Of a DNA stretch of 64,000 nt, positions 4,831 to 28,695 are shown piece after piece; position 1 is the first letter of the stretch, and every line of letters begins with the position of its first letter. The position numbers were made by a program, and so were the translations under genes. The notes under the pieces were generated by a model. The model made no database searches and had not been told where the DNA came from. It saw nothing but the letters and a program-made list of their open reading frames with translations. Source of the stretch: Algoriphagus aquimarinus (GTDB taxonomy: Bacteria; Bacteroidota; Bacteroidia; Cytophagales; Cyclobacteriaceae); the NCBI RefSeq assembly GCF_900112005.1, contig NZ_FOKK01000004.1:124001-188000 (forward strand), written 5' to 3'.

Positions 4831-7800
4831 TTATTCTACTATTATGATTCCGTTCATCAGTCTCCAGTGACCTGGAACTGTACAAACAAATGGGTATTCT
4901 CCAGGCTCATTTGGCACTGTGAATACTAGGGATTCTTTTCCGTTTGGATCCACTAATCTAGAAGCAACAATCACTTCTGGGATTTTAGGAACGAAATTCT
5001 GCTCGGCGCCTTTTGGATCACGTGCAAGTTCATCTGCGGCTTTACCTATAGCTTCCAAAGAGCCTTTTTTACCGATCACCATATTATGTTGCATGAAGTC
5101 AGGGTTTTCGAAATCAATCGTCACCTGAGTTCCAGCCTTCACTTTGATGGATGTCTTATTGAACTTCATCTCGTGTGGAACTACAGCGATTTTGATCACC
5201 GTGCCACCAGCAGGAGTGGTAGTTGGTTTAGCCTCAGCAGTAGCAGTTTGCTGTGCGACTCCAACACCTGGCTTACGTAAAGCCAAACTGGATTTGTTGC
5301 TCAAGCGACCGTTGAACCACCAATCTCCTTCGTATTTACCAATTCTATTTCTACTGTCATCTTGACCCACTCGTACCCGAGTAGGAGTAAGGGACTCTGT
5401 AAACAATCCTTTGGTTTTGCCTTTTGCTACTTCTTCACCGTCAATTTTCAAACTCATACGTCCATCTTCTTTCAGTGAAGCATCGATGGTAAATTGCTCT
5501 TCCGGCATATTTTTGCGGGAACTGATGATCTCTACTTTTCCATCCTGAGCTACAGCAAAATGAACAGCATTCTTAAAGATGTACAGCTCGTAACCATTTG
5601 TAGCATTACCTTGAGCAGCAAGAATTCCTCTCATCTCATCATCACCTTTGGAAACAATAATCTTGATATCAATCTCTTTTCCCACTGGATCTGGAGGGAA
5701 AAGAATCGTGTTTCTCTGATCCAAATTGTATTGCTCTGCAACTAAGCTTCTGGAGATTCTATCTGCAAGGCTCAATTCCTGACCTTTGACATCCTGCATA
5801 GCGCTAGCACTTTCTCTCTCTGCAAAAGCAGTTGGATGTGAAAGCACAGCCGCGAAAATAGCCTGGGGTAAATAAGCGTCTTTCTGATTGTCCTCGTCAT
5901 TGGTAGCTTCCAAAAGCTTTTTGGCTACATCTACAGAGAATGGCATCTCAGAAGCTGCAAGGAATGCATACTTTCTAGTGTGGAGATCCTGATCTTGAAG
6001 CAGATTACCAGCTAAAATAGCTGACATGGCTGAAGGATTTTTAGGAAGTACACGAAGTGCATTCTTACGAACTGCAGCAGATGGATGGCTTAACGCTTTC
6101 TCCACTACCTGCTGTGCAGCAGCATTATTTCCGTCCAAAACACCTAGACCATGAAGCGCCCAAAGTGCATTGACAGCAGGTCCATTGATACCGATGGCAT
6201 CTACTTTTTGATTGTTGATGAGATCATACAAGCCTTCTACTACGTCCAAGTCCTTGGATTCTACGATCAATCGCTGAGCAGTTAATCTCCAGAACATGTT
6301 CTCACTTTGAATCGCAGCCAAAAGCTCATCTGATTCAGCATCTTTCAAATTGAAGATTTTGGATGGCTCACCACCTTTATACGTAACGCGGTAGATTCTA
6401 CCATGCTCTCTGTCACGCAAAGGATTGATATAAGCATTCCCTTCTCCATTTTCACGGCCTCTAGGCGTAGGATTATGTTGGATGATAAAGTTGTACCAAT
6501 CAGCCACCCAAAGCGATCCGTCAGGACCAACTTCTGCATGCACAGGGGAGAACCATTCGTCAGAACTCGCCAAAATGTTGAAATTATTTTTCTCAGTATA
6601 GCCAGAGCCTTTAGGAAGGATTTTAGCATTGTGAAGCACACGTCCCGTAGGTTCTGCTACGAACGCAATAGAGTTCCAGTATTTCTCAGGAAAGCTTCTT
6701 GCAGTATAGAAGTTATGCCCAGCAGCAGCTGTATAGCTTCCATGCCAATCCACTTGTCTTAAGAAAGGTGTAATGTGAGGCATGTCATAGTGCGTGTCAA
6801 TACCGTGTACAGTATTCGCAGATCCCTGATAGATTGGTCTCTTCAGGAAGTTGTTCGCCATAGAGAAATACACCGAGTGCTGTCCGTTGGCAGTAGAGAT
6901 GAAAGTTTCAAAATCCTCTGTGAAACCCAGTCCCCAAGTATTATTACTAGTATGTCCCAAATATTCCAGGTTAGTACCGTCTGGACTGAATCGGTAAACT
7001 CCCTGAGAGAAGGAGTGAGATACCCCACTTACTTCACCTTTGAAGCCTGAGTAACCCAATACTCCCCATACCTTATTATCAAAACCGTATTTCAGGTTTG
7101 ATGGGCCAGCGTGAGTATCGCTTTTGCCCCAGCCTGTGATCAAAACTTCTCTTACATCAGCGACATCATCGCCGTCAGTATCTTTTAGGAAAATAAAATC
7201 TGGTGCCATGGAGATTAAAACTCCACCATTAATCATGGTCATACTGGTTGGGATATTTAGGCCTTCGGCAAAAACAGTCACCTTATCAGCTTTACCATCT
7301 CCATCTGTATCTTCCAGAATCTTGATTTTATCATCACCGCCTTCTTTGCGGATTTCGTTAGGGTAATCAGTCGTTTCGAAAACAAACAATCTACCACGCT
7401 CATCCCAAGCCATTGCCATAGGATTGATGATCATAGGTTCAGAGGCAAAAAGCTCCAATTCAAAGCCTACTGGCACCTGAATCAGTTTCATTGATTCCTC
7501 AGGAGAAAGTGGCAACTGGTAACGAGGTGCCGGATCTCTTTTCTCATAATTAGGAATATCCGCATCCTCAAACTGTGGAGTAGGAATATTGTATTCAGTT
7601 AAAAGCTTATTCACTTTATCACCTACAGCCCAAAGGATACCGTTTGCTATTAGATTTTGGAATTCTTTTTTCTCCCAAGTCTTCTCATTGTGACCATACG
7701 CTGTATAGAATACACGGCCTTTTCCCTGCTCACGAACCCAAGTATAAGGTTCTTTCTTATCGCCTTCTACACGCTCCATGAGCACATGCATATCAGGATT

Positions 7801-8355
7801 CACCTGGCTGTGTACATATGTTTCATCCCAAGTTTCAAACTCAGAAATGCCTTGCATCACTGGATGAGCTGCATCTACGATGGCTGCGGTGAAATCACCG
7901 GTACCATGTGTGCTGAACTGTCCACCAACTGCATCTATAAACCAAGGAGAATTTTGGAAACAAAAAGAAGCGCTGTGAATAGGAATCAACGCTTTACCGC
8001 CTTCAATATAAGACTTCAGGGCAGCTTCCTGCTCTGGCGTAATTTGCTCATGATTGGCATAGATCATCAAGCCATCATAATTATTTAGCGTCGTTTCATT
8101 CAGATCATTTACATCGGTAGTGTACGTGAGGTTAATTCCTTTTTGGAAAAGAGGAGTTTCTAAGTACATCATCAATTTCTCTGAATTGTGATGCTCACTT
8201 TCATGCCCTAGAACTAGAATTTCTACACGCCTAGGGTCAGTGGAAGAGAGAAAGTTTTTGTTGCTATTGCCACCGCATCCAGCGAGAAATGCAAGCATTA
8301 AGATCACCATTCCTACGAAGGGTGACTTAGGTAATTTTGGGGTTTTCAAATTCAT
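4831..8355 (-). CDS. Mosaic lipoprotein: ThuA-like, membrane-bound-dehydrogenase-like, HEAT, lectin-like and cupredoxin regions
   Basis: This 1174-residue protein has a lipobox LAGC (Cys27). Residues about 45-250 resemble ThuA (trehalose-utilisation, glutamine-amidotransferase-like fold). About 290-660 match the six-bladed propeller of sorbosone/glucose-dehydrogenase-like proteins (putative membrane-bound dehydrogenase type), with DTDGDGKAD calcium-type loops. About 665-850 are HEAT-like helical repeats, and about 860-1030 form a beta-sandwich resembling a lectin or DUF1080 fold. Residues 1053-1174 are an azurin/plastocyanin domain with type-1 copper ligands His1090, Cys1158, His1163 and Met1167. 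No CxxCH haem site was seen, unlike many relatives. It probably works on the cell surface or in the periplasm, passing electrons from a sugar to copper. It is first in a minus-strand operon, opposite an AraC regulator. Confidence 0.85.
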   Translation of the reverse strand: MNLKTPKLPKSPFVGMVILMLAFLAGCGGNSNKNFLSSTDPRRVEILVLGHESEHHNSEKLMMYLETPLFQKGINLTYTTDVNDLNETTLNNYDGLMIYANHEQITPEQEAALKSYIEGGKALIPIHSASFCFQNSPWFIDAVGGQFSTHGTGDFTAAIVDAAHPVMQGISEFETWDETYVHSQVNPDMHVLMERVEGDKKEPYTWVREQGKGRVFYTAYGHNEKTWEKKEFQNLIANGILWAVGDKVNKLLTEYNIPTPQFEDADIPNYEKRDPAPRYQLPLSPEESMKLIQVPVGFELELFASEPMIINPMAMAWDERGRLFVFETTDYPNEIRKEGGDDKIKILEDTDGDGKADKVTVFAEGLNIPTSMTMINGGVLISMAPDFIFLKDTDGDDVADVREVLITGWGKSDTHAGPSNLKYGFDNKVWGVLGYSGFKGEVSGVSHSFSQGVYRFSPDGTNLEYLGHTSNNTWGLGFTEDFETFISTANGQHSVYFSMANNFLKRPIYQGSANTVHGIDTHYDMPHITPFLRQVDWHGSYTAAAGHNFYTARSFPEKYWNSIAFVAEPTGRVLHNAKILPKGSGYTEKNNFNILASSDEWFSPVHAEVGPDGSLWVADWYNFIIQHNPTPRGRENGEGNAYINPLRDREHGRIYRVTYKGGEPSKIFNLKDAESDELLAAIQSENMFWRLTAQRLIVESKDLDVVEGLYDLINNQKVDAIGINGPAVNALWALHGLGVLDGNNAAAQQVVEKALSHPSAAVRKNALRVLPKNPSAMSAILAGNLLQDQDLHTRKYAFLAASEMPFSVDVAKKLLEATNDEDNQKDAYLPQAIFAAVLSHPTAFAERESASAMQDVKGQELSLADRISRSLVAEQYNLDQRNTILFPPDPVGKEIDIKIIVSKGDDEMRGILAAQGNATNGYELYIFKNAVHFAVAQDGKVEIISSRKNMPEEQFTIDASLKEDGRMSLKIDGEEVAKGKTKGLFTESLTPTRVRVGQDDSRNRIGKYEGDWWFNGRLSNKSSLALRKPGVGVAQQTATAEAKPTTTPAGGTVIKIAVVPHEMKFNKTSIKVKAGTQVTIDFENPDFMQHNMVIGKKGSLEAIGKAADELARDPKGAEQNFVPKIPEVIVASRLVDPNGKESLVFTVPNEPGEYPFVCTVPGHWRLMNGIIIVE

Positions 8356-27718: not shown

Positions 27719-27798
27719 AACTTGAAGTTTAAAATTTGAAATTATTGAACCACGATTTCTGGTTCAGCCTTTGGCACAATTTCTTATTTGGTTTTTAT

Positions 27799-27836
27799 AA
27801 ATCGCTCGTTGGACTGTTCAACGGGCGATTTTTTTT
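27799..27836 (+). terminator. glnS terminator
   Basis: Stem AATCGCTCGTTG / CAACGGGCGATT has a 7-base loop and a run of T. It resembles the terminator at 28598-28635 in stem sequence, and its right half is copied in each unit of the repeat array. Confidence 0.9.
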
Positions 27837-27923
27837 GTTTTCAGAAAGAAGGTAGTCAAGAACAGGTAAAGGAATTTTTCTCCTTTCTGAGATGAATTAG
27901 TATTTGCGCTATTCAAATTTTTA

Positions 27924-28500
27924 CTGCTCGTGCCGTTGGCACTCTGGGGTGTTTATTTTTAAGCAACCCTGAATTTCGCTTCGCTGTATTCAGGGTTAGT
28001 ATTGGTTGTGCCTTTGGCACATTTATCCTATAAAATTCTAGAGTTCCTTGCCAAGAGCAAGGCCTGTAATGACCCATAGTAGAATTCTGGGTTGTTCAAT
28101 GGGCGATTTTTTTTTGATTTCAAAGGCCTCGTTAGTACAAACAGCGGATAAGAATTTGATCGTCTTTAAACTGTTCGTGCTGTTGGCACTCAGATACATT
28201 CATATTTAGGTAACCCTGAATTTCGCTTCGCTGTATTCAGGGTTAGTATTGGTTGTGCCTTTGGCACAATTATCCTATAGAATTCTAGAGTTTCTTGCCA
28301 AGAGCAAGGCCTGTAATGACCCATAGTAGAATTCTGGGTTGTTCAATGGGCGTTTTTTTTTTTGATTTCTAAGGCCTCGTTAGTATAAACAGCGGATACG
28401 AATTTGATCGTCTTTAAATTGTTCGTGCTGTTGGCACTCAGGTACATTTATATCTAGGTAACCCTGAATTTCGCTTCGATTTATTCAGGGTTAATACATG
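27924..28500. repeat. Tandem array of about 247 bp non-coding units (2.3 copies plus a degenerate one)
   Basis: Copy A runs 27924-28170 (247 bases) and copy B 28171-28418 (248), which match almost base for base. Copy C starts at 28419 and stops near 28495. Each full unit carries a GTGCCGTTGGCAC-type palindrome, a hairpin with arms AACCCTGAAT / ATTCAGGGTT, a second palindrome GTGCCTTTGGCAC, the AGAATTCTA ... TAGAATTCT arms enclosing CCTTGC / GCAAGG, and finally TTCAATGGGCG with a T-run. The last resembles the 3' half of the glnS terminator. No start, stop or ORF is shared, so it is DNA or RNA structure, not coding. Confidence 0.9.
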
Positions 28501-28597
28501 GAACTGATCACTTTTGAGTGCCAACGGCACGATCAGTATTTTATCTACTGCCAATAACTATCTAGGGATTCTCAACTTTACTTCAAAAAAAATAGCA

Positions 28598-28635
28598 CAA
28601 AAAAATCGCTCGTCGGGTTGATCAACGAGCGATTT
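28598..28635 (-). terminator. Terminator of the M16 peptidase gene
   Basis: Stem AAATCGCTCGT / ACGAGCGATTT, with an A-run on the left that becomes a T-run on the minus strand. It ends the minus-strand gene at 28696. Confidence 0.85.
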
Positions 28636-28695
28636 CTAGTACTAAATAAAGTAAACATATGGCTATCTGAACGAGATGAAACCAACAAGCAATGC

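Follow-up and report, generated by a model that had tools for sequence, protein, structure and literature searches.

A 64,000-nucleotide stretch of the Algoriphagus aquimarinus genome (the window) carries a repeat array (27921-28540) in the space between glnS and the gene for an M16 peptidase (gene names were taken from sequence reading), and the question addressed here is what this array is and how it arose. The initial annotation had described two nearly identical units of about 247 bp and a partial third, preceded by a degenerate copy, and had considered a REP/BIME-type element, a structured RNA and the duplication of a terminator-bearing segment. The units are present, spaced at 247 and 248 bp. 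Their identity is high, with 226 of 248 aligned columns identical between units 1 and 2 and 77 of 84 between the first part of unit 3 and unit 2, although "nearly identical" is a little strong; the degenerate copy came down to a 22-nt piece resembling small hairpin R2, beside which the glnS terminator stands intact. The right half of a glnS-like terminator (families D3 and D5) does close units 1 and 2, and the inverted palindrome copy reported at the end of the array was found as GTGCCAACGGCAC (28518-28530).

The features of the array are collected in Table 1, with small hairpins denoted R and large hairpins B. Four terminator copies (T0 and T3 whole, T1 and T2 half) alternate with the element copies (E0 to E3), and T3, which the initial annotation does not mention, bounds the array on its right-hand side. 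Together the outer hairpins make up an inverted repeat of 23 nt (I3), with 96% complementarity. Folded as single-stranded DNA and compared with dinucleotide shuffles, unit 1 gave z-scores of -3.92 for the top and -4.60 for the bottom strand, with 0/200 shuffles as stable on either strand. The array was absent from the list returned by Tandem Repeats Finder, and Rfam 15 gave no match in it at the gathering score, the sole match in the window being a tRNA elsewhere. Judged from its sequence, the window copy of the element may be inactive and no longer moving, because the R1 tags of units 2 and 3 have decayed.

Table 1. Element copies (E) and terminators (T) of the glnS/M16 array, in window coordinates.
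Feature	Position	Strand	Remarks
E0: R2-like hairpin, putative remnant, stem broken	27760..27781	+	family D4, 91% to R2 of unit 2
T0: intact glnS terminator	27799..27836	+	terminator-like site; same kind in 4 syntenic relatives
E1: TTAC tag (27921-27924) and small hairpin R1 (27930-27942)	27921..27942	+	
E1: large hairpin B1	27965..27997	+	
E1: small hairpin R2, tag decayed	28007..28021	+	
E1: small hairpin R3 (inverted arm, 28046-28062), GTAA tag 28066-28069	28046..28069	+	
E1: worn B2 (28073-28091), apparently fused to terminator half T1 (28092-28116)	28073..28116	+	fusion suggested by comparison with full elements
E2: R1, one stem mismatch, tag decayed	28177..28189	+	
E2: B1	28212..28244	+	
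E2: R2	28254..28268	+	
E2: R3, GTAA tag 28313-28316	28293..28316	+	
E2: worn B2, apparently fused to terminator half T2	28320..28364	+	
E3: R1, tag decayed	28425..28437	+	
E3: B1	28460..28492	+	
E3: small hairpin R4, inverted arm (28518-28530), GATCA, GTAT tag	28518..28539	+	inverted repeat I3 with R1 of unit 1
T3: complete terminator, M16 side	~28601..28638	.	family D3, 85% to T0; right flank like relative G028 (inspection)

The spacers after glnS were read in 20 relatives. M16 follows glnS directly in G028, G017, G075 and G063, and all four have one terminator and no element at this site, while G017, G028 and G075 carry the family elsewhere in their genomes. No R hairpin was present within 600 bp after glnS in any of 29 relatives. 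By inspection, T0 retains the left and T3 the right ancestral flank. In a further relative (G065, L112), M16 lies ~900 bp from glnS with other sequence between them. The array reads as four element-plus-terminator units derived from one element beside one terminator. In a plausible order of events, a copy of the element would first have inserted beside the glnS/M16 terminator; slippage or unequal recombination would then have multiplied element and terminator together into four tandem units; and deletions would have followed, which took away most of E0, left B2 of units 1 and 2 joined to half a terminator, and made unit 3 shorter.

With the array as query, related sequence was found in its own genome on contigs C11, C17, C18 and C25 besides its own contig, and in 5 of 57 other genomes, all Algoriphagus. 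A covariance model (model R1) was then built from 15 aligned elements, with no row from the window; these were 15 of 25 distinct full elements, the remaining 10 coming from the same genomes. The model recovered the window units with E-values of 3.1e-37, 7.3e-34 and 1.5e-15, and matched in 28 of 60 Algoriphagus genomes (26 of the 40 of good quality), two of the matches being weak (G031, G067), and in 7 of 96 genomes from other genera of the same family (best E 7.3e-18, the rest 6e-11 or weaker). Members of the family measure roughly 200-270 bp between approximate ends. In the A. aquimarinus genome, the model placed elements at at least 15 places on 7 contigs; copy numbers are given as rough lower bounds, with both strands counted and no more than 36 candidates per genome scored in one scan, or 22 in the other. 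Inside another array of the family, on C17 (L021, ~7760-8200), a run of N marks an assembly gap or a masked stretch. The literature covered (preprints, most subscription papers and supplements lie outside it) holds no report of these Algoriphagus elements.

Sites were classified with crude ORF calls. Six A. aquimarinus sites away from the transposase gene described below are intergenic, four between convergent and two between codirectional genes, and the 20 sites in G021 comprised 8 convergent, 11 codirectional, 0 divergent and 1 unclear. None of the 25 classified sites in these two genomes thus lies between divergent genes, against a background of 10 divergent among 43 gene pairs in the window by the same kind of calls, and family sites tend to fall after genes. 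The neighbour genes of different sites are unrelated. In G021 (L169-L188), six-hairpin cassettes lie within a ~570 bp element with inverted ends GGATCAGTCT/AGRCTGATCC, of which both ends were recognised in 3/20 copies and one end in most others; by inspection, G019 looks similar, with many copies in a larger inverted-repeat element. The ~570 bp element may explain the spread of the copies in G021, which is one of the genomes that have elements but lack a close Y1 gene (see below).

A full element consists of two inverted arms, each a series of small, large and small hairpins, giving six hairpins in all (four small, two large). Along its own direction, an arm runs from an R hairpin through 5 nt, GTA(A), a large hairpin B and a spacer to a second R hairpin, 5 nt and GTA(A). 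The R hairpins have a 5-bp core around GCC-NNN-GGC, the B hairpins take the forms CCC[T/C]GAAT...ATTC[A/G]GGG and CCCAGAAT-NNN-ATTCTGGG, and a small hairpin typically has its tag, [T/A]TAC or, read on the opposite strand, GTA, at a distance of exactly 5 nt from the stem. Over all fetched loci, with each hairpin counted on both strands (488 strand contexts), GTA stood exactly 5 nt after the R hairpin in 150 contexts and at each other offset from 0 to 8 in 1-8. In tag and tag distance the inner hairpins R2 and R3 match the outer ones, and 147 of the 159 hairpins with a tag at offsets 4-6 have the loop AAN on the tagged strand. Among 79 tagged hairpins with a GTGCC stem, read in the TTAC sense, TAC is preceded by T in 47 and by A in 24; it is followed by C or T in 62, with GATC as the next bases in 48. 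On the tagged strand, most B1 loops have the core GCGNAGC or GCAAAGC, and 13/15 aligned elements have GNA as their B2 loop; GNA loops form very stable DNA mini-hairpins.

In the structure of 39 pairs, 99.1% of cells pair, and sliding the partners lowers this to 23-44%, a comparison that favours it over the slid versions because it was read off one aligned row. Cells changed on both sides numbered 19, against a shuffle mean of 5.7 and with 0/500 shuffles as high. Counted by pairs, changes on both sides occurred in 4, which is unexceptional against the shuffles (95/500), because most pairs never vary.

The family is linked to a gene for a Y1 (IS200-like) transposase. Six Y1 matches, five above the cut-off, were obtained in the A. 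aquimarinus genome, and one of the genes lies among elements of the family (L020:9197-9643, 148 aa; Pfam Y1_Tnp, E 2.9e-20), with an R4 hairpin 33 bp before its start and an R1 hairpin 23 bp after its stop; no R hairpin was found in the fetched loci of the other five. Between the element copies beside this gene (C18, L020:8211-8873) lies a pair of genes for a PIN-domain protein and a DUF6364 protein, in a toxin-antitoxin-like arrangement. The Y1 protein has the motifs DHLH (HUH), WQ and YIQNQEEHH, and judged by motifs and length it fits TnpA_Y1 subclass 1.2 (Y---Q--HH, HUH, WQ, ~148 aa) as set out in the available part of the description of that subclass. The linked Y1 protein scored 55.3 bits with the NCBIfam model transpos_IS200 (cut-off 55) and E 4.8e-4 with phmmer to IS608 TnpA, and 22.6 with REP_Tyr_transpos, whose cut-off of 80 was not reached. 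For the homologue from A. ratkowskyi, a structure model (mean pLDDT 85.7, pTM 0.75) was searched against the PDB; ranks 1-29 were IS200/IS605-type transposases (IS608, ISDra2 and others), many with hairpin DNA, and rank 30 was 4er8, a REP-bound tyrosine transposase.

Across the genus, R hairpins lie within 200 bp of the gene in 14 of 15 fetched loci of homologues with at least 60% identity, the exception being L065; in A. ratkowskyi, the gene stands within an array of 55 hairpin calls over ~3.5 kb. More distant Y1 loci of the genus were flanked in 1 of 15 cases, with other stems. Small hairpins of other kinds were also seen near two homologues of 38% identity (L076 of G015, 2182-2960; L075 of G026, 2019-2083), and L076 has ATGCCGTAGGCAT four times at ~250-bp steps. 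Some Y1 relative occurs in 51 of 60 Algoriphagus genomes, and elements are present in 15/15 genomes with a close Y1 gene versus 13/45 without (Fisher 7e-7), or, in genomes of good quality, in 14/14 versus 12/26 (Fisher 5e-4), where the genomes are related and not independent. Five neighbour proteins of the A. aquimarinus Y1 locus were found at 0/21 other Y1 loci, represented mostly by flanks of 1.5-3 kb and including some species twice.

Three other explanations were weighed against these data. A structured RNA, or a regulatory element of the 3' end, that acted on the transcripts of glnS or M16 would account for a conserved and thermodynamically strong structure beside terminators, for the 19 cells with compensatory changes, and for sites after genes with 0/25 between divergent ones. 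The two arms, however, carry the same strand-specific marks in opposite orientation, that is, on opposite strands, the hairpin is missing from the glnS 3' flanks of 29/29 relatives, the neighbour genes are unrelated from one site to the next and Rfam gives no match, and we regard the RNA proposed by the initial annotation as very improbable. A purely local duplication of a segment that bears a terminator, unconnected with any mobile family, fits the alternation of terminator copies with repeats and the lack of the array at the glnS/M16 site in the relatives examined. As the full explanation it is refuted by the family elsewhere in the same genome and in the genus, where the segment is a member of a family present in 28/60 genomes, and it retains next to no probability; it explains the tandem step, the last one (four terminator copies here, one in 4/4 relatives with the same gene pair), but not the whole story. 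A unit found in no relative and showing no covariation had been expected of a one-off duplication. The family is found in relatives and covaries, while at the glnS/M16 site itself the element is missing from the relatives examined.

A MITE that belongs to a transposase of the conventional DDE type, in which the enzyme would bind the 23-nt terminal inverted repeat and the hairpins would be passengers, appears unlikely. The 96% complementarity of repeat I3 speaks for such an element, as do the several G021 copies that sit inside the ~570 bp element with its inverted ends. Against it, the inner hairpins R2 and R3 are tagged at the same distance as the outer ones, the gene flanked in 14/15 close cases is of the Y1 and not the DDE type, and by inspection the outer ends seen in G021 are missing from the aligned A. 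aquimarinus elements.

The array is probably a copy, amplified in tandem and decayed in part, of a composite non-autonomous element that is REPIN/BIME-like and belongs to a family served by the Y1 transposase. The initial guess of a REP/BIME-type element pointed in the right direction: the repeats stand in inverted pairs, are dispersed and intergenic, and flank a Y1 transposase gene. We infer that the elements would be mobilised by the Y1 protein, with cutting beside TTAC, and that the array at glnS would have arisen by slippage. While single-stranded during replication, an element would fold into its hairpins; the Y1 protein, with the fold of the IS608 and ISDra2 transposases, would bind the R hairpins and cut beside TTAC; and the element would be moved as single-stranded DNA to another intergenic place. 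The 13 of 45 genomes that have elements but no close Y1 gene count against service by the Y1 protein, and in G019 and G021 the larger inverted-repeat element may move many copies instead.

Among known systems, the closest comparison is with the REP sequences, BIMEs/REPINs and REPtrons of TnpA_REP (RAYT) genes, described for E. coli, Stenotrophomonas and Marinomonas in the available parts of PMC6006769, PMC8266576 and PMC2817692. The Algoriphagus elements share with them short tagged palindromes in inverted pairs, intergenic positions and an arrangement around a low-copy Y1 HUH gene. As in a REPtron, the Y1 gene has repeats in inverted pairs on its flanks, both in A. aquimarinus and in 14/15 close homologues, and dispersal is likewise seen, although at least 15 places on 7 contigs, as lower bounds, stay below the >100 copies often quoted for REPs. 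The tag of canonical REPs is GTAG/GTGG, 0-2 nt 5' of the hairpin foot, and REPtron Mb of Marinomonas has a REP with a 5-bp stem 2 nt from the tag (PMC8266576, available part), whereas the Algoriphagus tag is [T/A]TAC/GTA, 5 nt from the core stem. Unlike in REP pairs, each half is a three-hairpin arm, and unlike the TnpA_REP class 2 proteins (Y---NP), the linked protein has Y---Q--HH, as in 51/52 loci. The system works like a REPIN/REPtron system, yet departs from canonical REPs in two criteria, the tag and the protein class. Tagged palindromic repeats with other tags also make up the GTAG and CGTC repeat superfamilies. In the available part of PMC3733652, CGTC repeats are reported without a link to a transposase and TIRYTs are Y1 genes with flanking inverted repeats; 20/26 TIRYT examples fall in subclass 2.1 in the accessible portion of PMC6006769.

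The putative insertion site invites comparison with the IS200/IS605 family (IS608, ISDra2), which has the same transposase fold and hairpins near TTAC. IS608 inserts 3' of TTAC with C preferred at +1 (PMC5934647, part available), and C or T after TAC in 62/79 GTGCC-stem hairpins resembles this preference, a likeness that is suggestive by analogy. Unlike IS200/IS605 elements, those of Algoriphagus are gene-free, with symmetric ends, four small and two large hairpins, and TTAC only 5 nt off.

The linked protein resembles subclass 1.2 in its length of 148, HUH, WQ and Y---Q--HH motifs, low copy number and occurrence in Bacteroidota. For this subclass, Table 1 of the published survey enters REP as "no", and typical IS200 end structures are generally lacking (PMC6006769, available part); hairpin elements paired with a subclass 1.2 transposase are absent from that part of the survey, and the literature within the coverage given above has no report of REPs with subclass 1.2. 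Unlike this entry, recurring hairpins flank 26/52 loci of the Y---Q--HH type. These 52 Y1 loci were chosen by likeness to the query, 51 of them having Y---Q--HH, after exclusion of seven (five from species already counted, two fragments). Their flanks, taken to 300 bp at most on either side, contained 127 hairpins of 7 bp or more, against 4.0 expected from shuffles. Since single hairpins can be ordinary terminators, only recurring ones were counted, that is, two or more flanking hairpins of similar stem; the other 26 loci had none. By identity, they were present at 13/16 loci at or above 60%, 6/22 at 40-59% and 7/14 below 40%, and the controls gave 0/29 for glnS 3' flanks and 1/86 for end windows of Y1 loci.

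In another genus of the same family (L190), a Y1 gene of 57% identity is flanked by cassettes of the form GATC-GGCCT-TTC-AGGCC-TC, with the frame seen in Algoriphagus and a different stem. Outside the family, genome-wide spread was checked for two hairpins. In Desulfonema magnum (L102), CCCGGCAATTTATTGCCGGG lies beside the Y1 gene and has 131 forward and 95 reverse matches in the genome with up to 2 mismatches, many in arrays spaced at ~69 bp; it is a palindrome, so these places are partly counted twice. In the Flavobacteriales MAG MS006, all 7 hairpin matches lie in one 1.4-kb stretch of C29, the contig of the Y1 gene, a count that speaks against a general claim of high copy number. Tentatively, and with some doubt, Y---Q--HH Y1 transposases may keep REPs as a class, from Algoriphagus to Planctomycetota and Desulfonema, each clade with its own hairpin arrays, and the Algoriphagus element with its IS608-like TTAC/Y site could be a halfway form between IS200/IS605 ends and REPs.

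For the question of how REP systems arose from IS200/IS605 transposases, a class 1 enzyme that has REP-like arrays and what looks like a TTAC site offers a testable intermediate, with an accessible single protein and a defined hairpin substrate. It would add to the REP-linked enzymes a kind that is common in Algoriphagus, and the family explains recurrent intergenic repeats of Algoriphagus genomes.
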